DNA of 64,000 nucleotides, taken from the IMG/VR virus record IMGVR_UViG_3300025913_000026, positions 20,698-84,697 of that record. One strand, 5' to 3'. Source of the stretch: a virus. The notes beneath the pieces are model-generated. The model did not search any database, had not been told where the DNA came from, and worked only from the letters and a program-made list of their open reading frames with translations. Made by a program: the position numbers and the translations under genes. This document shows positions 6,401 through 64,000 of this stretch, piece by piece; position 1 is the stretch's first letter, and the number at the start of each line of letters is the position of its first letter.

Positions 6401-8730
6401 TCCCATGTATTTAATATTGGAGTTGATTCAACTGGTATTTCTTTGCCAGATATACTTTTAGCTTCCACCGCAGCTTCATTAGCAGTTTGTTTCGCTCTCT
6501 CTACTTCGCTGGTTACAATTTTATTCTTGTTATTATCGACTATGTATTTCCCTAATTCTTTAGCCTCACGAATACCTTGTTCAGATAATTTTGATGGCTC
6601 AATCCCATTTTCTTGCCTAGCAGCTGTTTTTGTATCCTCCCCATGTTCAGATACTACTATATGGCCAATTTGTTCTGATGGCACCTTCCCGGCCCCAGTT
6701 TCAGATGACTCAATTTCTTTTGGGTATAATTCTTTAGCTTTATTTACTATTTCTTCTCCAAATGCATCTATAGTTGCCTGAGCGGTAGCTGGATCATGAG
6801 CCTGTTCTGCTATGTCTTTCATATGAGTCCCCAACTCTTTTTCTGTTGCATTTTTTAATACATCAACAGCAAATCCTTTTATTCTACCATCTTTTATTTC
6901 TTTATCTATTAATTTTTGCAATTCTCCACGATCATTCCCCTTTGAAATATTTACAATTTCTTCATTTAAAATTTTAATACGTTCTTTTAATTCAGGATGA
7001 AAGGCCGGATCAACTTTTTCAAGTTGTCCTTCCAATATATCACGCTCTTTTATCTTCGCTTGAATTTTCAATCTTTCTGTTTCAGGAACACTTTCGGGAA
7101 TTGAAGCATTTATTTCTTTTTGTTGCCTAATAGCATTTTGTGCTGACCGTAATTCTTCAGGCGAAATGACTCCTACATCTTGAAGATGATTAAATTCCTG
7201 ATTCAATACTTCTTCTGGCATTTTAGATAATCCATGAAGTATTTTATTATAGGTTGATGGCTTCAATAAATTAGCAAACTTACCTACCATCGCGCTTCCA
7301 ACAGTTAAAATGAATCCCATTTTAGATTGATCCGCAACACCCTCATCTGTAGATACTGATATTCCTTGTTGTTGAGCTAATATATTTTTAATAGCTTGCC
7401 CACCTCCTGCGACGCCTCCTATAGCTATTCCTTCTAACCCTTTCTCAACACCAGCTTTGCCTAATTGCTTCAATGCACTAGCTACTGATTTAGTAAGAAG
7501 TGTATTAGTTCCGGCAGCAGCACCTGATAAATTTTTTATACCTACAAATCCCATTACTGCTCCAGTAATCGCATCAGTGGCTGCTTGATGTGCCGATAAT
7601 TCTTTTGCCTTTTTATATGCATCATAATCAGGCATATCTGGATGTTCTTTTTTTATGGATGCATAATTCTGTGGCAACGCTCCGGCATATCCTAATTTAT
7701 ACATTTCGTGGGATGTAATACCTCCCGCGGCAGCTGCTCCTCCTAATGGTGTTGTAAAATAACTTGCAACAGCTCCTCCCACTAAAGGCTTTATTGGCGT
7801 TCCTCCTAAAATAGAACCAGCTTCACCTAATGCACCATCAGGCACTTTTGTAGCTTCATCAGGATCATAATCCTTCATTTTGCTATTAAGTTCTTTTATG
7901 ATAGCTGCTTCATTCTCTGTTTTAGTATAAAATTCATAATCTTTAAAAAGTTGATTCTTCTGTTTGAATCCTGTAGCTAAACTTCCAAAAAATCCTTGTG
8001 GCTGTGTAAGGACACCTCTTTTTATATCATAATCAAAATCACCACTTTTAAGTTTAGCTACATTCTTTAAAACTTTATCTTCTTTATCAGATCGTTCTTG
8101 TGCATCTAATCTATATATATCTGCCTTAATTTGACTAGCTCTTGCTGGATCTGTATTTAATAAATCTTTTACTTTTTGTTGTAATGCTTCCCGGGCCATT
8201 GCCGGATTCGTAGCCATTTCATTTTTGTAACGCTCTATTTCATGTGGTTGCACATCTATAGGCTTCTCAAATTGCTTGTCTAATTGTTGAGCTTGAAAAT
8301 TTACCGGCCCTTCTTCTTTAGGATTAAATCCCAATTGCACATTTTTAATTTTCCCCTCCATATCCTTTTTACGATCATAGATAAGATTGCCTATATGTGG
8401 GTCTATATCTCCTAATTCATTTGATACTCGTGTAGCAGCTTGTCCAATACTTTTAGTGCGCTCGTCTATAGGAATAGCATTAGCTTCAACCATTGGCTGA
8501 TATCCTTCTTTTGGAATATCTAACCAATTGGTCATCGGCTTAAATTCTGGGGCCGACTGTTGTGGCTGTGATTGCTTCTGAATGGGTTGATAATTTATCC
8601 TCTCTTTATACTCTGGATATTTTTGAACCATTCTATCAACCAATTCGCTATCATTAACATCCTTATATTGAGGATATTTCTGCTTTATTCTTTGCGCAAA
8701 TTGCTCTATGGATAATTTATCTACTGGCAT
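3484..8730 (-). CDS. giant multidomain (polyvalent-like) virion protein with histidine-phosphatase domain, 1748 aa
   Basis: Probably packed in the capsid and delivered with the DNA. N-terminus (1-45) has FAQRIKQKYPQYKD and KYPEYKE repeats typical of large phage internal proteins. Residues about 300-460 are Gly/Ala-rich and hydrophobic, as in membrane-acting ejection proteins. Residues about 690-840 resemble the histidine-phosphatase fold: EHGEDT, then VTSEVERAKQTA, WDIGEFDGKPEG and a second His in THVVTHSKVMRA. The usual Arg-His-Gly is Glu-His-Gly here, so activity is uncertain. A Gln/Gly/Glu-rich linker follows (about 880-930), then coiled coil (about 1080-1140), then a conserved end (about 1540-1620, DPRSSDFGKLKVGNSRYDIW) shared by many large phage proteins. 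The start abuts the stop of the 474-aa gene. Exact role unproven. Confidence 0.72.
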   Translation of the reverse strand: MPVDKLSIEQFAQRIKQKYPQYKDVNDSELVDRMVQKYPEYKERINYQPIQKQSQPQQSAPEFKPMTNWLDIPKEGYQPMVEANAIPIDERTKSIGQAATRVSNELGDIDPHIGNLIYDRKKDMEGKIKNVQLGFNPKEEGPVNFQAQQLDKQFEKPIDVQPHEIERYKNEMATNPAMAREALQQKVKDLLNTDPARASQIKADIYRLDAQERSDKEDKVLKNVAKLKSGDFDYDIKRGVLTQPQGFFGSLATGFKQKNQLFKDYEFYTKTENEAAIIKELNSKMKDYDPDEATKVPDGALGEAGSILGGTPIKPLVGGAVASYFTTPLGGAAAAGGITSHEMYKLGYAGALPQNYASIKKEHPDMPDYDAYKKAKELSAHQAATDAITGAVMGFVGIKNLSGAAAGTNTLLTKSVASALKQLGKAGVEKGLEGIAIGGVAGGGQAIKNILAQQQGISVSTDEGVADQSKMGFILTVGSAMVGKFANLLKPSTYNKILHGLSKMPEEVLNQEFNHLQDVGVISPEELRSAQNAIRQQKEINASIPESVPETERLKIQAKIKERDILEGQLEKVDPAFHPELKERIKILNEEIVNISKGNDRGELQKLIDKEIKDGRIKGFAVDVLKNATEKELGTHMKDIAEQAHDPATAQATIDAFGEEIVNKAKELYPKEIESSETGAGKVPSEQIGHIVVSEHGEDTKTAARQENGIEPSKLSEQGIREAKELGKYIVDNNKNKIVTSEVERAKQTANEAAVEAKSISGKEIPVESTPILNTWDIGEFDGKPEGSFNESEWAQKHNELVPGGESFNDFTKRMEQANEYIKSLPEDTHVVTHSKVMRALEALKQTDGKWTDETTNIFLNNKELTHAKDVRGNQGLIPKGGEIGGGSQDTGSNDIQQVPPNTSERGETEQQAGRREETGQGSSEEKVGEPPMAGITHRQMDAMAEEFGLPTYEKSPEKVAEWDEQATKQLQKPGALDELFTKLRNGITPDHVETRMMLQYMGDLLAKIDKDPYNRQLQDQLIRTKDLFNVAGRIQGKALVARKGSVPVEETLGDFLMRDRESNKAQLTDEQIRVSKKEYEEIKAAKEAYEKKLAEQKEKSNQEKAQKIVEQKAKEAKKQIGKDYKSERQEILKNIVEKWKKSSKENLGASILPYAKELAAISPDVMKLVKNLVEEGVTKLPDVIKAVHNQVKDIIPKITENDVHDIIAGEYNKKQTRNQITQQLYDLRREAKLMNELDQLLNGQVPSNPKKVRARNQRIEELKKQIKGLEDEMGISDEKRLEALKGRYKSQIADLENKIAKGDYGPDEKPEPIKLDQEAIELKDKMIKLKLDREARLAKQEYENRSKLQKAKDLASESLDVVRTLQTNPDMSFFGRQGIKFMVTHPIKGAKLFWESAKQAFSQARYDRWLYDLHNSPAWKLIEDSGLAVLDPNTLHASMREEQWRSQLIHKIPVAGQVAKASERAFTSAANMARVDWFMEGVDILRKQGKTFENAADEYKGWASAVNNMTGRGGLGAFEPVAGQLAIPFWSPRLIASNINLLNPYYYYKLPKTARIMALKNMAQYTITGVAFLAMAHRLGAEVESDPRSSDFGKLKVGNSRYDIWGGGAQYIRAFAQILTATRKTNGGMQKLDTKNQEVVGANLVRSKLSPLVGFGVDVTLGKNIVGEEVKLKDAWKLTVPMLWNDINDARKDSGADGAAVAGVLSFLGIGAQTYTPKSGGSGGGAGATGKFSKTTKLGKQTKTTKH
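5946..6131 (-). CDS. candidate nested gene inside the 1748-aa gene (other frame), 61 aa
   Basis: Read in another frame of the same strand, through the low-complexity linker of the 1748-aa protein. The product has YEEIRDSYLKAGKSEEEAK followed by TLAAMTYNKYRQTHP, a motif I associate with small free-standing phage proteins. It ends RVKVRVKKK, matching the basic tail of the lysozyme-like protein (VMVKVKK). Chance ORFs rarely carry both. No good Shine-Dalgarno precedes ATG 6131-6129, but this group uses such sites weakly. Could still be a composition accident in an Arg/Gln/Glu-rich linker. Confidence 0.4.
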   Translation of the reverse strand: MPKMYEEIRDSYLKAGKSEEEAKTLAAMTYNKYRQTHPSAEKLSNKPEGEKKRVKVRVKKK

Positions 8731-20010: not shown

Positions 20011-21252
20011 TTACATTGACCAAATACGATCTGCCACTAATTGAGAGTCATTTTTAGGAGCTTCCTGGCTTGTTGGAATTGGCCCAAGTTCTGGATTAAC
20101 TCCCTTCAAGTTAATATTGTTTCTTACTTTTGTATCGTGCAACATTCTTTTACTCCCAGCATCATTGATTAGATTCTGAGTAATGTTATTTTTATATTCC
20201 AGCCAATAGACATCTTCGGCCATTTGTCTAGTATTAAATGATCCATCCTTATTAACCCATCGGCCCGTCAAATAATCCCATTTAGAGTAAAGACTTTCCA
20301 CGATATTTTTAACATTTACCTTTTCTTCGCTTGTAACATCAAAAGATAGTGGCAACTCGACTTCCTTGTCTTTGTAGCTCATCTTAATGTCGTTAAAAGT
20401 TTTAAGGCTGTTTTCTAATGACTCATAATAAGCCTGTTGCTTTTTTTCAGCCGCCGCCAATTCCTCTGGGGTAGGCTCATTAAATTGCTGAGGCTTTTGT
20501 ATATCTGGGAGAACGATTTGACTTCTTAATTTGGAGAGTTCAGGTTTAGTCATCTTGGCCTCAATAATCATATCCATCTGCCTTTCCCTTACCTGATCTT
20601 CCCATGCTTTTACTTCAGCGGCATAATCATCTGCATCTTGATCCAGCGTTTGTGCTGGGTTAGATGGCAATGAATATTGCTTATTGTATAAGCGGTCTAT
20701 CTCTTGTGTAGTAAGAGTATCTTTATATTTGAATTGAAGATTAGCCCGAAGAATTTCACCGGCCTGTGTGGCATCGGCTACATCATACTTCTCTAATTTT
20801 TCAAGTTGTTTCTTTTGATTTAGAAAATTGTAAACATCATCCTCTTTACCTTCTTTCAAATAATCGAAGAAACGTTTACTATCTTCATTAGCCCATTGAA
20901 TTTCTTGTGGGGTTGGGGCTTCTTGCGGCTTATTGAATTGCTCCCATTTGGTTTTAAATTCATCCATGCCTAAGCCGCCTGTTACACGCCGAATAAAATC
21001 ATCTTCATCTAGGATTTCATCTGCATTTGCCGCTGGGACTTGCGCCGCTGGTTGCTGTTCTGTACTAGCTACGGGAGTTTCGTTTACAGCAGGAGTAACT
21101 TCTACATTTTGATATGGAGTGGTTTGCGCCCCCCATAAAGTATCGGCCACGACTTGGCTTACTTCAGGAGTTGCTTGTACAGCCTGATCTTGGCCTTGTG
21201 TCTCTGTTTGTGCTGTTGTGGGTGGTTCTAAAGTCGCTACATTATCAGACAT
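20011..21252 (-). CDS. scaffolding protein candidate, 413 aa
   Basis: Directly upstream of the capsid gene (27-base gap), acidic and Gln/Glu/Pro-rich, with long helices (KKQLEKLEKYDVADATQAGE, AAEKKQQAYYESLENSLKTF) as in capsid scaffolds. A motif occurs near both ends: SQVVADTLWG (about residues 32-41) and SQLVADRIWSM (last 11 residues). Paired short motifs could be capsid-binding elements. No serine-protease motif is seen, so a fused prohead protease is not supported. It begins the capsid transcription unit, just downstream of the 21272 palindrome. Confidence 0.6.
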   Translation of the reverse strand: MSDNVATLEPPTTAQTETQGQDQAVQATPEVSQVVADTLWGAQTTPYQNVEVTPAVNETPVASTEQQPAAQVPAANADEILDEDDFIRRVTGGLGMDEFKTKWEQFNKPQEAPTPQEIQWANEDSKRFFDYLKEGKEDDVYNFLNQKKQLEKLEKYDVADATQAGEILRANLQFKYKDTLTTQEIDRLYNKQYSLPSNPAQTLDQDADDYAAEVKAWEDQVRERQMDMIIEAKMTKPELSKLRSQIVLPDIQKPQQFNEPTPEELAAAEKKQQAYYESLENSLKTFNDIKMSYKDKEVELPLSFDVTSEEKVNVKNIVESLYSKWDYLTGRWVNKDGSFNTRQMAEDVYWLEYKNNITQNLINDAGSKRMLHDTKVRNNINLKGVNPELGPIPTSQEAPKNDSQLVADRIWSM

Positions 21253-51183: not shown

Positions 51184-52341
51184 CTACGCATATTTCCATT
51201 CATAGCCTCCACAACTGCTCCTAAGACCAGTTACCACTCTTCTAATTCCTACAGGATGTAAGTTAGTAGCCTTTGCGGCAGCGGATATAGAAGGATATGT
51301 GGCTATAACTTCTCCATTTTTTATTTGAGATATTGCTACCTTCTTGCCTTTCGTTCCCTCATATTTTATATTGGGTGTTGGAATAGTAATTTCTATTTTA
51401 GGATCAGGACTTAATATCAACTCCTTATATCTTAATCTTCCAGGAGCTTTCTTTAAAGCCCATATAAACCGTTCTGCATCTTTCATTTTTCTAAGGTTAT
51501 ACCTAAATGCTATTTCCTCACAATACCGGGTTAAATGCTTTACAGTTATTTTATGGTAGGTGCCTATAATGGTTCTTTTTAAATGGCTAAAGGCTCCCTC
51601 TATTGTGTTGGTATAGATAACCTGATCTCTTACATATTCATCTAATCCATGATTAACAGTTTCATGGCCTGCATATTCCCTCTTCAAACCTATATAATTA
51701 CATGATTCATCAGTCATTAGTACTGCATCTGTATCCACATTACGCTGAATTAATTGATGAATTAAAGGAGGGGCAACCCCGAAAGTACCAGTTGAAATTA
51801 GCTTTAATTCGCCGCCTCTTTCAACCATCCCCATTACCATAGTTTTGGTTTGATGGACGGTATTAGAATCTCGAAGTTCCTTTCTTTTCTGTTTATTCAT
51901 ATTAGGGACGCGACCACCGATATAAATCTCATCAATTTCTACAATGTTATCCAGCTTTACAGGCTCTTTAGGACGCATTATTTCCCGAATCCTATGAAGC
52001 ATAAACCAGGAGCATTTTTGAGAAACCCCTATATGCTTGGCTAATTGATAGGAAGAAATGCCCTTTTTGTTAGCTGTAGCTAGATACATGGCTATAAACC
52101 ACTTATTTAGAGGAATATTGCTGGCCTCAAATATAGTCCCAACCTTAACGGAGAACTTCTTAAAGCATTCTTTTTTACCGCATTTATATCTAGTTCCCTT
52201 TTCTATTACATAGCATTTATCATGGTCGCAATAAGGGCACACAACCTTACCATCAGGCCAACGCTGTTTTGCCAAATAGTTTCGGCAATCCTGTTCGTTT
52301 GATAGTTTTTGTATTAATTCCTGAAGATTTTTAAATTCCAT
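51184..52341 (-). CDS. IS1595-family transposase with C-terminal NUMOD1-like domain, 385 aa
   Basis: Cuts and pastes the element. N-terminal zinc-ribbon (VVCPYCDHDKCYVIEKG ... KCGKKECFKKFSV), then a helix-turn-helix (ISSYQLAKHIGVSQKCSWFM). Catalytic core: VEIDEIYIGG (first Asp), VLMTDESCNY (second Asp), then NTIEGAFSHLKRTIIG (Asn/Glu in the family's third place). Residues about 335-385 (GEVIATYPSISAAAKATNLH, GGYEWKYA) match NUMOD1, a DNA-recognition module of homing endonucleases and not a usual part of IS1595 transposases. Length is above the family norm (about 300 aa) by that module. Confidence 0.88.
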   Translation of the reverse strand: MEFKNLQELIQKLSNEQDCRNYLAKQRWPDGKVVCPYCDHDKCYVIEKGTRYKCGKKECFKKFSVKVGTIFEASNIPLNKWFIAMYLATANKKGISSYQLAKHIGVSQKCSWFMLHRIREIMRPKEPVKLDNIVEIDEIYIGGRVPNMNKQKRKELRDSNTVHQTKTMVMGMVERGGELKLISTGTFGVAPPLIHQLIQRNVDTDAVLMTDESCNYIGLKREYAGHETVNHGLDEYVRDQVIYTNTIEGAFSHLKRTIIGTYHKITVKHLTRYCEEIAFRYNLRKMKDAERFIWALKKAPGRLRYKELILSPDPKIEITIPTPNIKYEGTKGKKVAISQIKNGEVIATYPSISAAAKATNLHPVGIRRVVTGLRSSCGGYEWKYA

Positions 52342-53206: not shown

Positions 53207-53340
53207 ATCTTTTTAAGGACTGGCAAAAATATCTAAAATTTGTAAATACTAACATAGGTTAGTTAAAAATATCAAATAAACCTATTCTTATTTGCATATA
53301 TCGGTGCTTCTTCTAATATTTGGCCCGATATAAAATAATT

Positions 53341-53496
53341 GCGTTAGCTCTCCCAGCTTTCCAAAACGACCAAATTTTAAAAGTATACGGGGGCAAGCGA
53401 AGCGTCACGCCTATGGCGTGGGCTTACGTCTGCACGTATACAAGGCGCTTGGTCGTGCCTGGAAAGCGGTGGATGCTATAGTCCCACGCTTTTTTT
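53341..53496. ncRNA. nested-hairpin element in transposon (structured RNA or folded recombination site)
   Basis: Four nested helices: 53356-53362/53461-53467 (gctttcc/ggaaagc), 53366-53373/53449-53456 (acgaccaa/ttggtcgt), 53383-53389/53435-53441 (gtatacg/cgtatac), 53406-53411/53415-53420 (cacgcc/ggcgtg). Outer ends gcgt/acgc pair as well. GC-rich against AT-rich surroundings, ending in a T7 run. The form resembles integron attC sites (long folded single strand), but the conserved GTTRRRY/RYYYAAC core boxes are not clear. Could equally be a structured RNA leader of the lipoprotein gene. The rest of 53028-53540 shows no gene. Confidence 0.5.
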
Positions 53497-56414: not shown

Positions 56415-56801
56415 GCGCCCCACCCCCCCCCACAAGTTATCACCTCTTCCAAATAAATCTATCTCCCAATCCCCCCCATCCCCCAATCCAACCCACCACA
56501 CTCTAACCACAAAGCAATCTAACCTAAACGCCAATTAGTCAAAGCCATAGACCATCACAACCACAACAGCGCAGATTACATAACTACCTGGAAAGCAAAA
56601 TGGGAAACGCCGCCCACCCCATTACAGATAAACGTTTGCCCATTGACCGACCATCGATCTAAACGTAGGGGGTGTACTCAGTGAGTGTAAATCGAGGGGT
56701 ACCCAGTTTTATTAGCGAGGGTGGGGTGGTTTACGGGAAAGTACCTAGATTTGTGGGTACTTGGTATTCAATGTCGTTGAATTAAGAATAAATAATATAT
56801 T
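56415..56801. promoter_or_regulatory. strand-asymmetric control region (possible origin/operator)
   Basis: No gene is seen here. Plus strand is C-rich at first, with C8-C9 runs (about 56418-56431) and a 77-base stretch without G (56437-56513). The minus strand there has G-runs able to form G-quadruplexes. It then turns G-rich (56666-56760). An exact -7 element TAGATTTG (56746-56753) sits inside a perfect inverted repeat AAGTACC-N10-GGTACTT (56739-56762); GGGTACCC lies 35 bases upstream. That would be a repressor-controlled promoter for the plus-strand 57-aa gene. Skew switches are also seen at replication origins. Confidence 0.4.
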
Positions 56802-56975
56802 ATGAGTAATAAAGAAGAGCATTCACAACAATATGAAAGATTACCAGAAGATGATAAAACAGTGGCCGATACAATATTGGGATATTTGAATGGTTGTAAT
56901 AATAAAAAAGCAGAGCGTATATTGTATGCTCTGCTTGAAGAAATTAGTTATCATTCTACTATTCACAGTGAGTGA
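56802..56975 (+). CDS. small acidic protein, 57 aa
   Basis: ATG 56802 to TGA 56975, downstream of the promoter at 56746. Product: SNKEEHSQQYERLPEDDKTV, ADTILGYLNGCNNKKAERIL, YALLEEISYHSTIHSE. Not recognised. Helical. It converges with and overlaps (13 bases) the 46-aa gene. Confidence 0.5.
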   Translation: MSNKEEHSQQYERLPEDDKTVADTILGYLNGCNNKKAERILYALLEEISYHSTIHSE

Positions 56976-57103
56976 AAATCTGTATTTTCTTTAACAGCTT
57001 TTTTCAAATCTCTTATTTCTTCTTTTAAATCTTTAATCTCTCTTTTTAATTGATTAAGGCTATCCATTAACTCGTAAATAATTCTATCATCAATATTTGA
57101 CAT
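56963..57103 (-). CDS. small coiled-coil protein, 46 aa
   Basis: ATG 57103 to TGA 56963. Sequence MSNIDDRIIYELMDSLNQLK then a heptad-type coiled coil with EIKDLKEEIRDLKKAV. Not recognised. Could be a small dimeric protein. Low-complexity Lys/Glu composition lowers certainty. Confidence 0.4.
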   Translation of the reverse strand: MSNIDDRIIYELMDSLNQLKREIKDLKEEIRDLKKAVKENTDFHSL

Positions 57104-57122
57104 AGACAAAGTTTTTGTTTTG

Positions 57123-57605
57123 TTATAATTGTTTATAATTCATGGATGGCGGCTTTTTAGGGCTTTTCTTTCTAGCTTCTTTTCTTCCTGGTCTTACTAT
57201 TTCTACTGTTGCTCTTGCTATTTTATCAAAAGCATCTATGGCTGAAGAAATGGCTTTATGGATAAACATTTTTGGCGCAGATTCCTTTACCATTGACAGG
57301 GCATTTGTTCTGTTTACCTTGTAATTGTGCTTAGTGGTCTTTTCTGCCTCCTGTTCTTTTCTTAGTTGTTCATCTATTGGAAATGCTAAAACAGCAGTAG
57401 TGGTCATAATGAATACCTTTGCATAGAAATCCTGTTTTACAGCCAGTGAAGTTTTTCCAGACCATGCTTCTAGTTGTAGGCGGCATTTATATAGCTTATA
57501 TGCTTCTTCTATATTCCAACGCTTTTCGTATAAGGACACGAACTCATTATATGAAACTTGCTTTTGATCCATTAAGGAGGTTATCAGAATTTCAATACCT
57601 CCACC
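57123..57605 (-). pseudogene. C-terminal remnant of an IS4-family transposase
   Basis: The frame reads GGGIEILITSL (upstream of the first ATG at 57572) then NEFVSLYEKRWNIEEAYKLY, KCRLQLEAWSGKT. This contains the IS4 signature Y-x2-R-x3-E-x6-K and the strand before it. An IS4 transposase is about 400 aa; only about 160 remain, and the first two catalytic Asp are missing. Homology starts abruptly at about 57605. The end has a Lys/Arg-rich tail (RPGRKEARKKSPKKPPS). A short ORF of 149 aa could still be translated. Confidence 0.75.
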
Positions 57606-57699
57606 GTTATCAAAAAATATCGAATAACTGAAATTAGAATAGTTGGGTTATATTTATGGCCTTAATGCAGGAACCGGCAAAGCGGTTTATTCAATTCGT

Positions 57700-58092
57700 A
57701 TGTTTACTTCATTTCTTTTTAACAAGCTATCTCATCTACGCCAATTTTATTCAACCGAAACAGAATTTACACAGCACTTATTGAGCGGGGAGGTTAAGGT
57801 TTCTATCCCAGATTTAATTACATTCCAGGAAGAATACGAAAAACAAAAACCAATCAGTAATTCATCCGGATGTATTTTGCCTTCTCAGTTTCAAATAGGA
57901 GATAAGGCATCATTGAAATTGACTGGATTATCTTCAAAAGGTGATGGGTCGTTAGCTACCGTAGATTGTATAGCCGAAATATTAACGGTTCATTTCTATG
58001 AAGGAAAAGTGAAATATGATTTAGAACTCCCATTAGACTTTGGGAACACTAGAGTTTATAATATTGATTCTGTTTTTGTTTCGCCTGTATAG
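57700..58092 (+). CDS. hypothetical protein, 130 aa
   Basis: Start placed at ATG 57700 (MFTSFLFNKLSHLRQF); the frame is open further up, but only with a TTG at 57643. Contains TEFTQHLLSGEVKVSIPDLI, FQIGDKASLKLTGLSSKGDG and EGKVKYDLELPLDFGNTRVY. The second half looks like a small beta barrel for binding. Not recognised. Followed by a terminator. Confidence 0.55.
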   Translation: MFTSFLFNKLSHLRQFYSTETEFTQHLLSGEVKVSIPDLITFQEEYEKQKPISNSSGCILPSQFQIGDKASLKLTGLSSKGDGSLATVDCIAEILTVHFYEGKVKYDLELPLDFGNTRVYNIDSVFVSPV

Positions 58093-58113
58093 TTTTTGCC
58101 TTCATTTATTCCT

Positions 58114-58145
58114 AAGCCCAGATTCTTAATTGAATCTTGGGCTTT
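58114..58145 (+). terminator. hairpin terminator
   Basis: Stem aagcccagattc / gaatcttgggctt with one bulged base, loop ttaatt, then ttttgattttt. Lies 22 bases after the 130-aa gene. Confidence 0.88.
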
Positions 58146-58167
58146 TTGATTTTTATTTCAAAAATAT

Positions 58168-58197
58168 TTGGCAGTGTAATAAAAAGTAGTAATTTAG
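58168..58197 (+). promoter_or_regulatory. candidate promoter for RHH-like gene and structured RNA
   Basis: TTTG, then 19 bases, then TAATTTAG (one mismatch from TAnnTTTG). Predicted start of transcription near 58203, just upstream of AAAGGAAG and ATG 58223. Confidence 0.45.
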
Positions 58198-58222
58198 CTA
58201 CATGAAAGGAAGCGATGAAATA

Positions 58223-58396
58223 ATGGAAACATCTCCTGTGAGAATAGATAACGGAGTATTAGATATAGTTAGGAATATTAAGGCAATTACTGGATGCCCA
58301 ATTCAGCGTTTCGTTGAAGAGGCTATTGCTCTAAAGATTAGTAAGCTGCCTAAAAGCGTAAAAGATAAACTGGGACTTAAAGAAAAAACTAAATAA
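58223..58396 (+). CDS. ribbon-helix-helix-like small regulator, 57 aa
   Basis: METSPVRIDNGVLDIVRNIK, AITGCPIQRFVEEAIALKIS then KLPKSVKDKLGLKE. A beta strand (VRID), then two helices fits an Arc/MetJ-type fold. An ATG 21 bases upstream (58202) is possible, but it lies at the predicted -7/start site, and AAAGGAAG sits well for 58223. Directly followed by the structured RNA region. Confidence 0.55.
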   Translation: METSPVRIDNGVLDIVRNIKAITGCPIQRFVEEAIALKISKLPKSVKDKLGLKEKTK

Positions 58397-58857
58397 TTAG
58401 CTATGCCACCTACATCTAGGATTAGTGTTGCAAAAAAGGGTGCTATCTGAAACTAGTAATCAGATCATAGCTAAGTTCTTTGAATTTTATTTATTGGTTG
58501 CTAAAAGCCGCGGGATTCCTAACGGAATTATTGTCTAACATTCGACCAGCTAAGGATGGCGGTTTAATAGTGGTGTAACCAATAAACTTCTTTCTACTGT
58601 GTGATGTGGCTGGAATAACGCTGATGCAGATAAGTTCCGATAGGCAGCACTCGGGTAGTGGTAACATTATCGACTACATCTTCGGAGATATGCAAGGGTG
58701 CATAGTGGATTTAAAATCCATGAAATAGGCGGCCCTCTGTCAACTGGAACATAAGCAGGTAACCAATCCTGCCATCATATAGTAGATACTTACTTAAGGT
58801 CGGGCAAATGGAATCCGGCGGTACACGTCCCATCATAAGACCCGATCATTTTTTTAA
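58397..58857 (+). ncRNA. candidate large structured non-coding RNA, about 460 nt
   Basis: No ORF of note on either strand. Higher GC and many helices: closing stem ttagctatg / catagctaa (about 58397-58405 with 58468-58477), inside it atctga / tcagat; ATCT-tcgg-AGAT; atgca-aggg-tgcat; tggat / atcca; gcagg / cctgc; and a terminal helix ggtcggg / cccgatc (58798-58804/58841-58847) followed by T7-8. The latter is a terminator, so a discrete RNA ends near 58857. Place (phage, just before a tRNA) and size recall the GOLLD and ROOL 'ornate' RNAs. Family not verified. Confidence 0.6.
58798..58855 (+). terminator. terminator helix of the structured RNA
   Basis: Seven-bp helix (one G-U) closing a 36-base loop, followed by cattttttt. 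It separates the structured RNA from the tRNA. Confidence 0.65.
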
Positions 58858-58919
58858 CAGGATACAGCAAGAACTCAAAAGGCCACATCTATTCTATTCA
58901 TGGTTAAGATGTGGCACAT

Positions 58920-58992
58920 AGCTACATAGACCAACGGTAGAGTCAACAGACTTAAAATCTGTACAGTCCGGGTTCAAATCCCGGTGTAGCTA
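58920..58992 (+). tRNA. tRNA, anticodon UAA (Leu), atypically short variable loop
   Basis: 73 nt. Acceptor agctaca / tgtagct, D-stem gac / gtc with GG in the loop, anticodon stem acaga / tctgt with loop cttaaaa (anticodon taa, reads UUA), variable loop of 5 nt, T-arm ccggg-ttcaaat-cccgg, discriminator a. CCA not encoded. Bacterial tRNA-Leu has a long variable arm, so this is an unusual Leu-type tRNA or one with changed identity. Followed by a terminator at 59031. Confidence 0.88.
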
Positions 58993-59030
58993 CAGGATAA
59001 GGTTTAATGGTTAATGGTATTTGATAATAC

Positions 59031-59052
59031 GGGGCCAATTTCTACTGGCCCC
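59031..59052 (+). terminator. hairpin terminator after tRNA
   Basis: Perfect 7-bp stem ggggcca / tggcccc with loop atttctac, then ttctttt. It lies upstream of ATG 59072, showing that the longer frame starting at 59021 is not the real start. Confidence 0.85.
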
Positions 59053-59071
59053 TTCTTTTAAACTCCCACAA

Positions 59072-59428
59072 ATGAAAACAGTATATAACAACCCAGAAAC
59101 AGTAGATGCAATTAAATTAATGGTATTAGGTTGTATGCTGGCCGATTACGGTGCTAGGTTAATAGTTGATGATACCAAGCAAAATCTTAAATACCGTGTG
59201 AAGTGTGTGCTGAACGCAGTTAAAAATGTAGAATTGTATTTCATAAACCACAATAACACAACCGAAGAACATCGTAAGGCATTCAAACGCAGCTTTCTTA
59301 AAAACGAAACAGTACTGCTTGCTGATCTTAATTTAATGTGCTGGGAAATACAGGATGAAGGATTGGAACAAATAATAAGTGCAATCAGGCAAGTACTGGA
59401 TACGCCAGAAGAAATTAATAACCAATAA
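59072..59428 (+). CDS. hypothetical protein, 118 aa
   Basis: MKTVYNNPETVDAIKLMVLG, CMLADYGARLIVDDTKQNLK, YRVKCVLNAVKNVELYFINH. All-helical, ending DEGLEQIISAIRQVLDT. Not recognised. Lies 13 bases before the Acb2/Tad1-like gene in the same unit. Confidence 0.55.
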   Translation: MKTVYNNPETVDAIKLMVLGCMLADYGARLIVDDTKQNLKYRVKCVLNAVKNVELYFINHNNTTEEHRKAFKRSFLKNETVLLADLNLMCWEIQDEGLEQIISAIRQVLDTPEEINNQ

Positions 59429-59441
59429 ATACAAATCAATT

Positions 59442-59694
59442 ATGTCAGAAGTTCCTCAGAAGGATACGAGAGAATTAACATTTGGCGAAAAAGCCGTAGG
59501 CTTAACTTTCAATCCAGGTGGTCATGAAAAGGTGAATGCTATCAAGCAGGCTCAGGCTATGTATATTGATATGCTTAATCAGTTTTCGTGATGAAACGAC
59601 TAATGGTGAAGTAAAACGCCAACTCTCCGTGGCTATTACAGAAGCACAAACAAGTCAAATGTGGGCTGTAAAAGCCGTGACTTGGCAATACTAA
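59442..59694 (+). pseudogene. Acb2/Tad1-like anti-defence protein split by a +1 frameshift, 83 aa if joined
   Basis: Frame 1 (59442-59591) reads MSEVPQKDTRELTFGEKAVG, LTFNPGGHEKVNAIKQAQAM, YIDMLNQF and stops. Skipping one T of TTTT at 59583-59586 continues as RDETTNGEVKRQLSVAITEA, QTSQMWAVKAVTWQY to a stop at 59694. The joined pattern (FGEKAVGLTFNPsG...IK...a..ID.LN..R..T...EVKR..s.AIT.AQ..QMWAVKA.TW) matches the Acb2/Tad1 hairpin family, whose known members sponge cyclic-nucleotide signals of CBASS and Thoeris defence. Could be mutation, sequencing error or programmed frameshifting (two TGA codons follow the site). Confidence 0.65.
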
Positions 59695-59715
59695 CCCAAC
59701 CAATATTTAATAACC

Positions 59716-59786
59716 AAGCCCCTTATAAGTAGTTCATAAATTAAAACCAGCTCCCTTTATGATATATGGACTATGGAAAGGGGCTT
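59716..59786 (+). promoter_or_regulatory. paired leader/terminator-like structure
   Basis: aagcccctt (59716-59724) pairs with aaggggctt (59778-59786) around a 53-base loop that itself has cataaa / tttatg. It lies between the Acb2/Tad1-like gene and ATG 59800. Could be a terminator with a long loop or a structured leader. Confidence 0.4.
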
Positions 59787-59799
59787 AAATTTTAATTAA

Positions 59800-60033
59800 A
59801 TGGCAAAAACAAAAGAGATATCATTTACTTGTGAAGAAATTACTTCAAAGCCGGATGGATATAGAAAAATGAAATTGATAGTGGATTCGCCAGATATAGA
59901 TGAGCTTTTAACCGAAATTGATGATGAAGATTTAATAGGTCATCTTCAAGGTAATTTCAATCCAGAAGATGTATTTACTGAAAAAGATCTCAAAAAATGG
60001 GCTGAAGAAAACGGGTACTTAAAAATACAATAA
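59800..60033 (+). CDS. conserved small acidic phage protein, 77 aa
   Basis: KEISFTCEEITSKPDGYRKM, KLIVDSPDIDELLTEIDDED, HLQGNFNPEDVFTEKDLKKW. Short strand then acidic helices. I recognise the style from Bacteroidota phages, but not a named family. First of a row of small early-type genes. Confidence 0.55.
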   Translation: MAKTKEISFTCEEITSKPDGYRKMKLIVDSPDIDELLTEIDDEDLIGHLQGNFNPEDVFTEKDLKKWAEENGYLKIQ

Positions 60034-60041
60034 ATAATTAT

Positions 60042-60299
60042 ATGCAAGGAACAGTAAAATATAGCGAAGAGTTTATGACCATGACAGGTCTAAAGCGCTG
60101 GGTGGGAATTGAACTCCCCTTTGAAGATACAATCCATAGCCCAATTGATAAATTAGAAGAAGCCATGTCTAAAGTACAGTCATTTGCTGCTCGTTCAGGA
60201 ATTATTCATCCTCCTGTTACTAATGCAAATTATGGTTATCCCAATCTTCTAAACCCAGACGAACAACTACCTGTAATTCAAGTAAGAGAACAATACTAA
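60042..60299 (+). CDS. hypothetical protein, 85 aa
   Basis: Contains VKYSEEFMTMTGLKRWVGIE, LPFEDTIHSPIDKLEEAMSK and a Pro/Asn-rich end. The pattern 'G.v.ysee......l..W.gie...ed....ald.l...v' is frequent in small phage proteins. Function unknown. 8 bases after the previous gene. Confidence 0.5.
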   Translation: MQGTVKYSEEFMTMTGLKRWVGIELPFEDTIHSPIDKLEEAMSKVQSFAARSGIIHPPVTNANYGYPNLLNPDEQLPVIQVREQY

Positions 60300-60311
60300 A
60301 ACAATAAATAC

Positions 60312-60500
60312 ATGGAATGGATACCAGTAAGCGAAAGAAATCCAGAACATAGCGGCAAATATTTGACATATGCCTTGGACTATCATAAGGTAGGTCACGC
60401 ATGGTATAACACAAAGTACCGGCTTGGATGGGAAGATGACAAAGAAGAATGGCTTCCCGTGACTCATTGGTGTGAACTTCCTGAACCACCTAAACAATAA
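60312..60500 (+). CDS. DUF551 protein, 62 aa
   Basis: MEWIPVSERNPEHSGKYLTY then LGWEDDKEEWLPVTHWCELP and EPPKQ match the short DUF551 family (W.pvseR.Pe..g.Ylty....g....vtHW..LPepP). Function of the family is unknown. Similar to the C-terminal domain of the 239-aa protein at 48528. Confidence 0.8.
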   Translation: MEWIPVSERNPEHSGKYLTYALDYHKVGHAWYNTKYRLGWEDDKEEWLPVTHWCELPEPPKQ

Positions 60501-60510
60501 AACAACATAT

Positions 60511-60717
60511 ATGACAGACAGAATAAAAGGGCTTACAGTTATCCTTGAAAAGGATGTTCGAGAAGATGATTTAGAGGTATTCATTCAGGCAATATCGCTT
60601 ATGAAGGGAGTTCAGCAGGTTATTCCCCGAGAAGCCAATCATGAAGATATTATTCAGGAAATGAGAACTAAATCCGACATGAAGTCTAAAATATATGAGT
60701 TTATAAAAAACCTATAA
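60511..60717 (+). CDS. conserved small phage protein, 68 aa
   Basis: Start placed at ATG 60511 (MTDRIKGLTVILEKDVREDD), not at the overlapping 60472. Continues LEVFIQAISLMKGVQQVIPR and SDMKSKIYEFIKNL. This matches a common small phage protein with 'drIkgltVtLekDiReDD.e.ii.AI.mikGV..V.p' pattern; function unknown. Confidence 0.7.
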   Translation: MTDRIKGLTVILEKDVREDDLEVFIQAISLMKGVQQVIPREANHEDIIQEMRTKSDMKSKIYEFIKNL

Positions 60718-60720
60718 CAA

Positions 60721-60840
60721 ATGACTAAAGAAACAATCTTAGGCGATAAACGAGCCCGGCCAAAGCATTTGAAGGAATATTACGGGCCATGTTATCAATT
60801 GCAAGAACTGATGAAGAAAACCAAAAACAGGACAAAATAG
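60721..60840 (+). CDS. small basic protein, 39 aa
   Basis: ATG 60721, 3 bases after the previous stop, to TAG 60840. Reads TKETILGDKRARPKHLKEYY then GPCYQLQELMKKTKNRTK. Not recognised. Kept because of tight spacing. Confidence 0.4.
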   Translation: MTKETILGDKRARPKHLKEYYGPCYQLQELMKKTKNRTK

Positions 60841-60857
60841 ATTCAATGTGTTAAAGA

Positions 60858-61019
60858 ATGGGACGCAGGCGCAGACTACTTTATGTATACTGGGATAACG
60901 TTTATCAGCGGCAATATTCCACTACAACCTTTCCGGTAATGCAGGATAAACATTCAAAAGGCCGCTACAAAATACTTTGGTGCTGGAAACTAAAATACCC
61001 TTGGAGAAATGATAAATAA
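60858..61019 (+). CDS. small Arg/Trp-rich protein, 53 aa
   Basis: ATG 60858 to TAA 61019. Reads MGRRRRLLYVYWDNVYQRQY, then SKGRYKILWCWKLKYPWR. Overlaps the next gene by 11 bases. Basic and aromatic. Not recognised. Confidence 0.45.
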   Translation: MGRRRRLLYVYWDNVYQRQYSTTTFPVMQDKHSKGRYKILWCWKLKYPWRNDK

Positions 61020-61341
61020 AGAGCCTGGAAACGAACATTTATGGAGACAATTCATCCGGCTGGGGGAAATGATGGGAGATGGTTTGCATCATGAGGAGCC
61101 GTGGATTGCAAAGGAATACAAGCGCTTGATGATGATCTTGTGCCCACCAACAGTAGAAGAAAAGGCCGCGATTAGAGAACATAAAAACAAATCCATTAAC
61201 GCTCAAATGGCTGAATTATTGAAGGATAGGCATTGTTCATGTGGTGGCAGTATAAAACAATCAAGATCAGGTAGTAAAACCGCATATTGTGATAGATGTA
61301 GAGCGAAATTTAAAGCAAAACCTAAAAAACAATCAGAATAA
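61009..61341 (+). CDS. protein with C-terminal zinc ribbon, 110 aa
   Basis: N-terminal part helical (NEHLWRQFIRLGEMMGDGLH, WIAKEYKRLMMILCPPT). C-terminal zinc ribbon CSCGGSIKQSRSGSKTAYCD followed by RCRAKFKAK. Such ribbons bind nucleic acids in small phage proteins. It abuts the next gene. Confidence 0.6.
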   Translation: MINKEPGNEHLWRQFIRLGEMMGDGLHHEEPWIAKEYKRLMMILCPPTVEEKAAIREHKNKSINAQMAELLKDRHCSCGGSIKQSRSGSKTAYCDRCRAKFKAKPKKQSE

Positions 61342-61607
61342 ATGGATAAACCAGAAGAACTAATAACAGATGAACAGATAGAGAAGGCCTGGGGGAATGG
61401 GAACTTTGGAGAGTATCTGAATAACAACAAGCGAGAACTAATCAACAATACAGTCCTGAAATGCGCAAGTGGATTAAGGACTGGCGCTACGGCTACAAGC
61501 ATATGTGCAGAACTTGGGCTTACAGTAAGCAAAAAAATAAATGGAAGCTAACTGAGCAAGGCCAGTGGTATTTATATTGCGTTTATTCACAGGGTAAAAG
61601 TTATTAA
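61342..61607 (+). pseudogene. conserved phage protein broken by a -1 frameshift at A7, about 88 aa if joined
   Basis: Frame 1 (to 61551) reads EELITDEQIEKAWGNGNFGE, YLNNNKRELINNTVLKCASG, LRTGATATSICAELGLTVS. This matches a common small family ('itDeqI..AWGnaNFG....r..v....LKcAsGy.tG.ta..I..eLGL...'), which normally ends in a 'LT..G..yL' wing. Adding one A to the A7 run (about 61530-61536) continues as KWKLTEQGQWYLYCVYSQGK to a stop at 61607, two bases before the next gene. So a one-base change, real or artefact, truncates it. Confidence 0.6.
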
Positions 61608-61609
61608 TT

Positions 61610-61876
61610 ATGGACATGCAGGAAATATTAAATAAGTGGTATTTAACGCCAAAATACTTCTCAAATGACCACATTACTGAGCCGTTGGTTTTTGATTGCA
61701 TGGTTGATTATGCGCGACAAACTTCTCTTCATTTCGCTAAATGGGTCAATGAAAACTATCTCTATCACCAAGATGGACTATGGTATAAAAGTGAAATCCC
61801 TGAATGGGGATCCAAAACGGACGAAGAAGTCTGGGCGCTTTATTTAAATAGACATAATAATTCAAATCCTTGGTAA
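61610..61876 (+). CDS. hypothetical protein, 88 aa
   Basis: Contains QEILNKWYLTPKYFSNDHIT, FHFAKWVNENYLYHQD style aromatic motifs and KTDEEVWALYLNRHNN. Resembles short phage proteins that end 'fa.Wv.....'. Function unknown. 64 bases follow before the next gene, with only a 13-codon frame. Confidence 0.5.
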   Translation: MDMQEILNKWYLTPKYFSNDHITEPLVFDCMVDYARQTSLHFAKWVNENYLYHQDGLWYKSEIPEWGSKTDEEVWALYLNRHNNSNPW

Positions 61877-61940
61877 ATAACAATTTATATATTGTATTGA
61901 ACATGGGAATAGACTTCAGTAATATAAATCAAAGCATAAA

Positions 61941-62285
61941 ATGAGCAATCACAACAGAAGATTATTGGATAAGATTCGGTATAACCGACAGATGGATCAG
62001 CTTTTATCATTAATACGGAAATCTATTATAGCCTCTGAAAAATATACTATCTATGAAGTAGACATGAGCTATACTAGTTCCTCGTTTTACGAGTTTAGAG
62101 TATACCGACAAGGAGAAACATCTGAAATATTAATGTGGCAAACGGTACAAATAGGCACAGATGAGTTTGACGATCAATTCAAAGCGCTAGATAATGTCCT
62201 TAACAACTTGCTTACTCATGGTGTAATGCCAGACATATACCCAATGTACATTTCTGAAGAAAAGGAGGGTGAAGATGGTCGATAA
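61941..62285 (+). CDS. hypothetical protein, 114 aa
   Basis: Basic start (SNHNRRLLDKIRYNRQMDQL) then an alternating beta/helix body (YTIYEVDMSYTSSSFYEFRV, FDDQFKALDNVLNNLLTHG). Not recognised. Its last codons contain AAAGGAGGG, the ribosome site of the nuclease gene. Confidence 0.5.
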   Translation: MSNHNRRLLDKIRYNRQMDQLLSLIRKSIIASEKYTIYEVDMSYTSSSFYEFRVYRQGETSEILMWQTVQIGTDEFDDQFKALDNVLNNLLTHGVMPDIYPMYISEEKEGEDGR

Positions 62286-63162
62286 AGTGATAAGCTTCGA
62301 TAGTTTCAAGGTTAGGTGTTCCCAGATTGTAGCTGCCTTATCAAATAGCCGGTCAAATCCTATTCTAACAGAGAATCAGGAAGCTAGGATAAAGGAATTG
62401 AACGATAAGCTGCAAGAAAAAGGCAAAATAACCGAAAAACAGCAGGCTGAATTAGCCGAATTACAAGTAAAGGAAGAAAATAGCAAGAAAGTAGTCCTCT
62501 CAGATACCTATATAGCATATCTAATGGCTGAATATGCCTGGATAACCGAAGGCATGATAGCCGTAAACAAGGAATCTATGGAGTTATTGGCTATTCAGAA
62601 GGGCAGAGAAGGCGAAAATGAGGCTGTAACGCTTCTAATGAGAGTTGATAAGCAACCATACCAAATCCACAAAGAAAGGATTTATAACGATTATCTGAGT
62701 GGAGAGATAGATATTTACCTGGGGGAGCATGTTTATGCTGCAACCAATATAACTGACATAAAAAATTCATGGGATTATCCTACGTTTCTAAAGAAGATCA
62801 ATACAGGGCTGGAAAATGGTCAGAAAGAGCAGGTCCAAGGATACTGTGACATTACCGGAGCCGGGGAAGGATATATTGCCAACACTTTAATCAGCAATCC
62901 AGAGCACATTATAGAGGAAATGAGATGGCGTGTGACTAAAAAGATCGGTGCTACCACTCCAGAATCTCCTGAAATGCTAAAAGAATGGCCTAAATGGGAA
63001 CGATCAATGAGGTTCGATCACATTCCACCAAATAAACGTGTGCATAAGATCAAAGTAGAGCCGTTCACGGAGTTTGAGAAACAAAAGCTGTATGATAGGG
63101 TAAAATTTGGCCGGGATTGGTTGAATCAATTCCACGAAAAGTATCAGGTATTGAATAAATAA
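62275..63162 (+). CDS. PD-(D/E)XK-like phage nuclease, 295 aa
   Basis: Start placed at ATG 62275 after AAAGGAGGG; a GTG at 62269 is the longer option. The core YNDYLSGEIDIYLGEHVYAA, TNITDIKNSWDYPTFLKKI then VQGYCDITGAGEGYIANTLI fits the Cas4/RecB-type fold: an acidic ligand in GEID, Asp-x-Lys in TDIKNSW, and a helix with Q-x-x-GY. N-terminal third is coiled-coil (EARIKELNDKLQEKGKITEK). Related proteins serve recombination or replication in crAss-like and other Bacteroidota phages. The RusA gene close by fits a recombination unit. Confidence 0.72.
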   Translation: MVDKVISFDSFKVRCSQIVAALSNSRSNPILTENQEARIKELNDKLQEKGKITEKQQAELAELQVKEENSKKVVLSDTYIAYLMAEYAWITEGMIAVNKESMELLAIQKGREGENEAVTLLMRVDKQPYQIHKERIYNDYLSGEIDIYLGEHVYAATNITDIKNSWDYPTFLKKINTGLENGQKEQVQGYCDITGAGEGYIANTLISNPEHIIEEMRWRVTKKIGATTPESPEMLKEWPKWERSMRFDHIPPNKRVHKIKVEPFTEFEKQKLYDRVKFGRDWLNQFHEKYQVLNK

Positions 63163-63182
63163 TTAAAATAAGTACTTAAATT

Positions 63183-63374
63183 ATGATAAGTAATGAGCAT
63201 GATGGGAAGAATCCGCAAATCAGTACCACGGTAAGCTGGGGATTGTATCAAGAAATAGATGAAATGGCTAAGAAAAATGACAGAACTTTGTCAAACATGG
63301 CTGCTATTTTATTGGAACGAGCGGTAAAAGAATCTAAAAGAAAGCGCACTAATGCAAAAGAAAATAATACTTGA
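63183..63374 (+). CDS. ribbon-helix-helix (Arc-like) protein, 63 aa
   Basis: PQISTTVSWGLYQEIDEMAK, KNDRTLSNMAAILLERAVKE: a strand then two helices with 'sr..sn.aa.ll..al', the RHH fold. Tail is Lys/Arg-rich. Overlaps RusA by 23 bases. Probably a DNA-binding regulator. Confidence 0.75.
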   Translation: MISNEHDGKNPQISTTVSWGLYQEIDEMAKKNDRTLSNMAAILLERAVKESKRKRTNAKENNT

Positions 63375-63810
63375 AATAACCCCGCAGACATATGTTCGGG
63401 CGACGCAGAATGATAGAATATTCTTCAGAATACCAAGAGATAAATTACGCCCAGCCAGTTTGAAAAGACTGGAAAGATTGGAGCAGTATAATAAATATAA
63501 AATAGCTGTATTAGCATTAGCCAAGCAGCAACATTTCATGCTTCCAGAGCAAGGGGCTGAAATAATATTCTATATCCCGGTGTCAAAAAGCTGGAAAAAA
63601 TATCAAAAAGAAGCCCAACATATGAAGCTTCACAGAAATAAGCCGGACTTGTCGAACTTACTAAAGGCCCTGGAAGATGGGCTTATGACCGAAGATAAAG
63701 GGATAGCTCACTATGCAGGACTTGCAAAGATTTGGATCAATGAACCTACGGGGAGAATAGAGATAAATATCCATACTCCAAGTCTTAGTTCCATGGATGT
63801 TTTATCGTAG
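63352..63810 (+). CDS. rusA: RusA-type Holliday junction resolvase, 152 aa
   Basis: Resolves branched DNA during phage recombination/packaging. The hallmark KLHRNKPDLSNLLKALEDGL holds the catalytic Asp (K-P-D-x-x-N-x-x-K) and the later TEDKGIAHYAGLAKIWIN gives the second acidic Asp. The N-terminal half has EIIFYIPVSKSWKKYQKEAQ, the RusA strand and loop. Length above the 120-aa E. coli form by about 30. It lies downstream of the nuclease and RHH genes. Strong call. Confidence 0.85.
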   Translation: MQKKIILEITPQTYVRATQNDRIFFRIPRDKLRPASLKRLERLEQYNKYKIAVLALAKQQHFMLPEQGAEIIFYIPVSKSWKKYQKEAQHMKLHRNKPDLSNLLKALEDGLMTEDKGIAHYAGLAKIWINEPTGRIEINIHTPSLSSMDVLS

Positions 63811-63850
63811 TTTTTCGAAGTGAGTACCGTCATCGGTGAGTATTAGACAC

Positions 63851-64000
63851 TCATATGTAACAAATCAGTTACATTATTGATATAACTAATTGTTAATCAA
63901 AATGTTGATAAAGAAACTTACAAGCAAAGCTTGAAAACTTTATCAACATTTTGATTAACAATTAGTTATATCAATAATGTAACTGATTTGTTACATATGA
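63851..64000. repeat. perfect inverted repeat, arms of at least 63 bp, at window end
   Basis: 63851-63913 and 63938-64000 are exact reverse complements around a 24-base spacer that itself contains caagc-aaa-gcttg. Pairing is still perfect at the last base, so the arms may be longer. Just before it are direct repeats gtgagta. It could be a terminal hairpin, a transcription or replication control site, or a fold-back of the assembly. Confidence 0.93.

Follow-up and report, generated by a model that had tools for sequence, protein, structure and literature searches.

A modular structured RNA beside a phage tRNA-Leu gene, possibly the core of a stable-RNA operon with ribosomal RNA-type antitermination

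Introduction

Large RNAs encoded by phages near islands of transfer RNA (tRNA) genes are widespread and their function is mostly obscure. In a 64,000-nucleotide (nt) stretch of viral DNA (positions 20,698 to 84,697 of IMG/VR record IMGVR_UViG_3300025913_000026; hereafter the window) a candidate RNA of this kind precedes a tRNA-Leu gene, raising the question of whether it belongs to a known class or to a new one, and what its operon does. Cellulophaga and Flavobacterium phages have distant relatives of the portal and the terminase encoded by this record, a virus contig of 84.7 kb. The RNA shares homologous modules with other phages, among them a covarying helix, together with enriched boxA-like elements, a common promoter layout and a common 3′ element. 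We tentatively read the region, at a little short of an even chance, as the structured core of a phage operon for stable RNA that relies on ribosomal RNA (rRNA)-type antitermination. Its function is directly testable because homologues, a covarying helix, a candidate factor complex (NusB/S10) and a candidate copied host small RNA are all available.

Results and Discussion

The RNA and its homologues in other phages

The original prediction was of about 460 nt without an open reading frame (ORF), richer in G+C (GC) than its surroundings and with many helices, lying after an RHH-like gene with a candidate promoter and 60 nt before a tRNA. This description holds. There is no credible ORF in 58397-58855, and no frame over 58397-58860 exceeds 58 amino acids. 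GC content rises from about 0.33-0.36 in the flanks to 0.41-0.44 within the RNA region (0.414 for 58397-59060 vs 0.367 for the whole record), and the promoter and the tRNA are where they had been placed (Table 1); the small upstream gene is also present, although its likeness to RHH/Arc proteins is weak. The region 58397-58860 folds with a minimum free energy of −129 kcal/mol (z = −2.3), which was equalled by 1 of 100 dinucleotide shuffles, while for 58397-59060 the value (z = −3.5) was equalled by none of 60. In sampled windows of 220 nt the signal is modest, with the + strand favoured. Folding energy alone would not prove a structured RNA and, as the signal at this scale is not outstanding, comparative evidence was needed.

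Seven phages related through their portal were taken as the comparison set, in which BLAST with the RNA found nothing convincing. A single-sequence model of the P2 domain gave a weak match in one of them (G002), where the same helix lies in an ORF-free region of 1.5 kb; the gene downstream of this region is the one that comes after the RNA in the window. In another (G001) a 0.75-kb ORF-free region occupies the corresponding place, and a motif behind the tRNA position is common to G001, G002 and the window. Scanning viral contigs for this motif gave, among others, a further homologue (L088), and the conserved downstream exonuclease gene led to a fourth (L137). All four are in the same early-operon place, are mostly under BLAST detection and, with the window, vary about threefold in RNA length. 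All five phages also share a promoter of the form TTTG-N19/20-TAnnTTTG (TAnnTTAG in the window) 3-6 nt before the small first gene, a pattern with a background of 0.048 per kb per strand. Plain DNA similarity searches of phage and plasmid collections returned nothing except the tRNA, exact 33-mer and 16-mer searches of viral contigs returned none or isolated chance 16-mers, and the P3 core gave only chance-level matches in 399 Chitinophagales genomes by BLAST and a single-sequence model. The RHH-like gene as a search anchor gave no relatives, and no portal was found in genome contigs.

A covarying helix

Behind the boxA-like element an 11-14-bp helix closes the P3 domain, ending just ahead of a conserved ACUU-like flank. 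MAFFT misaligned whole P3 domains and gapped the four short modules, and anchored strands were compared instead (window 58593-58606/58773-58786; L137 4586-4597/4744-4755; G002 from 7195 and 7062 on the minus strand; G001 from 67495 and 67644). Over the twelve outer pairs 47 of 48 cells are paired, with changes on both sides in 11 of the 12 pairs, whereas only 3-8 of the 12 form when the strands are swapped between phages. When each module is folded freely, its minimum-energy structure includes the helix. In a second comparison, this time anchored at the inner end, the window, L137 and a further G002 module gave six double-change pairs out of twelve, a number that 0 of 500 shuffles and none of the slid versions reached. 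The proposal of a large structured phage RNA adjoining a tRNA, for which covariation in homologous phage regions had been suggested as the check, is thus supported by a covarying helix.

tRNA-like modules

Some of the modules look tRNA-derived. A G002 module (7580-7648) is an Rfam tRNA match with 33.4 bits (gathering score 29), and both window P3 and the L137 module have AUG-UGG and GCAGG...AAUCC parts in common with it. Window P3 also has an arm, UGGAUUUAAAAUCCA, resembling the Leu(UAA) anticodon arm, and from such likenesses it is probably an enlarged tRNA-like domain. The L137 module reads AUGUGGUGGAAUAGACA, which we take to resemble the D-arm region of tRNA-Leu. The RNA (58705-58722) and the tRNA (58949-58959) have in common the core of an anticodon arm of the Leu(UAA) type, GATTTAAAATC and GACTTAAAATC, respectively; this could reflect either a shared origin or an anticodon-nuclease decoy. 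In L088 a circularly permuted tRNA-like sequence was spotted by eye 374 to 290 nt upstream of the 3′ element (X, see below), in the order 3′ half with the T-loop TTCGAAT, TGCAC, 5′ half; it is called by no tRNA tool and the minimum free energy fold favours other hairpins.

Modules of this kind could also be broken tRNA genes that have no function themselves, the conserved words being leftovers of a tRNA operon. Such a decaying array would fit tRNA-like remnants of every grade, one recognised by Rfam and others not, as well as the fast loss of sequence between relatives and the finding, by BLAST or model, of no such RNA in the close relatives G004-G007. On the other hand, perfect 12-bp helices in which 11 of the 12 pairs show double changes require selection for pairing, and the boxA-like elements, promoter and operon place have all been retained. 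We consider decay unlikely.

Comparison with known RNA families

An Rfam cmscan at E ≤ 10 of all five RNAs gave no credible family except tRNA. At this threshold the covariance models of GOLLD and ROOL were unmatched in the window and the four homologues, and no match supports OLE or a group I or II intron, so that the suggested membership of GOLLD, ROOL, OLE or raiA is not upheld. For transfer-messenger RNA (tmRNA) Rfam gave nothing credible (an 11-nt fragment in L088, E 8.1) and ARAGORN finds one tRNA only in the window; P3 resembles the acceptor stem and T arm of a tRNA, a large domain standing where the anticodon arm would be, but no tag frame was identified. GOLLD is likewise large, ornate, phage-encoded and near tRNAs, which it may even hold in a linker (PMC12286853). 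The window RNA differs in being modular, with boxA-like elements, apparently tRNA-derived domains and element X at its 3′ end, the sequence of which is not that of the universally conserved 3′ region of GOLLD. With ROOL it shares its size, phage origin and proximity to tRNA islands, but no common layout was recognised. Titles and abstracts of literature on phage permuted tRNAs, tRNA-like decoys and crAss-like phage RNAs contained nothing describing the window RNA. The better reading is of a new class beside GOLLD and ROOL, its nearest known kind, rather than a member, which was the other option originally put forward.

Size, phage origin, tRNA neighbourhood and obscure function would all suit an ornate RNA that, like GOLLD or ROOL, forms a cage, many copies making a shell around tRNAs or other molecules with the modules as its arms; the tRNAs that GOLLD may have in its linker are in keeping with this. 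The absence of a model match and the variation in length, which is unlike a shell of fixed parts, make it improbable.

boxA-like elements

Elements of the type AAGTTCTT (AAGUUCUU) occur eight times in the 4,312 nt of the five phage RNAs, vs 0.19 expected from the same genomes, with one to three copies in each RNA. One Chitinophagales rRNA operon has five copies of the same 8-mer in its leader and spacer, after promoters and adjoining tRNAs. The phage locus resembles these leaders and spacers in having AAGTTCTT after a promoter and beside a tRNA, followed by helix-closed untranslated RNA, and differs in that the operon has no rRNA and is carried by a phage. Derived from E. coli, the boxA consensus GYTCTTTAANA (PMC5725501) differs from GTTCTTTGAAT at two positions. 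A boxA-like sequence is both enriched and placed in the leader, and its survival amid sequence that is mostly beyond alignment points to constraint.

With up to three exact elements in one RNA (L137), and the same 8-mer in the host rRNA leader, the RNA might instead act as a sponge, titrating NusB/S10 from host rRNA operons and lowering host ribosome synthesis. The single element in the window, G001 and L088 suits a role in cis better, and we give the sponge slightly less credit than the cage. That the locus is an ordinary non-coding gap with unremarkable folding, as the modest energies at window scale might imply, is contradicted by the covariation and element enrichment in the homologues and is very improbable.

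Element X and the host

Behind the tRNA lies element X, 31 nearly invariant nucleotides followed by a terminator. Chromosomes of Chitinophagales carry X as well, as a small-RNA-like gene standing alone; there it ends in its own terminator, in most cases has a TATATTTG promoter box and often lies beside the same chromosomal neighbours. It is present in 12 of 299 genomes of this order, with up to three per genome, and in none of 198 drawn from the class; a control with the reversed pattern gave no matches. X is absent from Rfam. Its distribution suggests that the host belongs to the Chitinophagales. The RNA unit reaches about 59060, as this host small-RNA element is part of it. In the window, G001 and L088 X is directly behind a tRNA or tRNA-like fold, which takes the place of a promoter, so that the 5′ end of X could be generated by 3′ processing of the tRNA. 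Several other phage contigs carry X alone, often beside an opposed gene that in some is HTH repressor-like. Two other interpretations of X were dropped: that it is the 3′ end of the big RNA, given the independent small-RNA-like gene in host chromosomes, and that it encodes a leader peptide (MVNGI), as third positions hardly vary and length variants shift the frame.

A possible mechanism

The operon looks like a small rRNA operon, with promoter, boxA-like elements, helix-closed RNA, tRNA and terminator. Starting at the promoter (58167-58197), host RNA polymerase would read through the small RHH-like gene into over 600 nt of untranslated RNA. Recruitment of the NusB/S10 antitermination machinery by the boxA-like element AAGUUCUUU (AAGUUCUUUGAAU) would keep Rho and the internal U-run hairpin from stopping the polymerase. 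The transcript would fold into its helix-closed modules, some of them apparently tRNA-derived, and RNase P and RNase Z would excise the tRNA-Leu, thereby freeing the 5′ end of X, a putative copy of a host small-RNA gene ending at the terminator at 59031-59060. Most likely the modules would persist as stable tRNA mimics acting on host tRNA or the translation machinery. This suggests a way for phages to make long untranslated RNA without a Rho stop. A bolder version, in which a new modular class of RNA mimics an rRNA operon, captures the ribosomal antitermination machinery, displays enlarged tRNA-like decoys and frees a host small-RNA copy by tRNA processing and not from a promoter, is possible but doubtful.

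Several observations weigh against an rRNA-type stable-RNA operon. In most copies the element has one or more mismatches to the E. coli boxA consensus, no boxA activity in Bacteroidota turned up in the literature searched and, the five phages being related, the eight elements are not independent events. Window P3 is matched by no tRNA model, the G002 fold ahead of X is not clearly a tRNA, L137 is without X, and the G001 RNA has a folding z of 0.12. For the pair counts the strands were excised by hand, which favours structure; the effect size and the flanking anchors serve as a safeguard.

Features of the operon

The features are collected in Table 1. At the place of P2 another G002 module and L088 hold other helices. 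The terminator originally proposed for the RNA (ggtcggg/cccgatc, then a T-run) corresponds to P4, with its stem at 58798-58804/58841-58847 and the T-run behind; its counterparts in G001 and G002 also have a U-run and are unlike it in sequence. P4 is missed by a simple terminator scan because its 36-nt loop is structured, and the same scan finds the second terminator at 59031-59052.

Table 1. Positions in the window of the features of the RNA operon.
Feature	Position	Strand	Remarks
Bacteroidota-type promoter, TTTG-N19-TAATTTAG	58167-58197	+	Same layout before first gene in all five phages
Small gene (64 amino acids), weakly RHH/Arc-like, opening the operon	58202-58396	+	
P1 domain, 9-bp closing stem TTAGCTATG/CATAGCTAA	58397-58474	+	tRNA-like fold at corresponding place in G001
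boxA-like element AAGTTCTTTGAAT	58473-58485	+	Enriched in phage RNAs; copies in host rRNA leader and spacer
P2 domain, 12-bp closing helix TTTATTGGTTGC/GTAACCAATAAA	58490-58586	+	Same helix in G002
P3 domain, 14-bp closing helix 58593-58606/58773-58786	58593-58786	+	Covariation
Arm GTGGATTTAAAATCCATG within P3, Leu(UAA) anticodon-arm-like	58705-58722	+	
T-arm-like hairpin GCAGG-TAACCAAT-CCTGC	58755-58772	+	Counterparts in L137 and G002
P4, stem with structured loop then U-run, terminator-like	58798-58855	+	Counterparts in G001 and G002
Hairpin GCCACATCT/AGATGTGGC ahead of tRNA	58881-58915	+	Related hairpin ahead of 3′ tRNA-like fold of G001
tRNA-Leu(UAA), no long variable arm	58920-58993	+	ARAGORN; Rfam 62.2 bits
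Element X (GGATAAGGTTTAATGGTTAATGGTATTTGAT) with terminator 59031-59060	58995-59060	+	

Further observations

Two copies of the RNA locus are present in the source record, whose ends form a perfect inverted repeat of 7,541 bp (56460-64000 in the window) that contains it. A separate virus record of the same group, G611 (L137/L138), also ends in a long perfect inverted repeat, of at least 11.4 kb, and both repeats include the RNA locus and the exonuclease gene; either real terminal repeats or an assembly effect could account for them. Elsewhere in the window, the top folding signal among the sampled 220-nt windows is at 53241-53460 (z of −5.3 and −4.1 on the two strands), near an IS1595-type element. 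The transposase (51184-52341) is of this type, and its C-terminal end is weakly like an I-HmuI/NUMOD-like homing-endonuclease DNA-binding domain, at a score under the curated cut-off.
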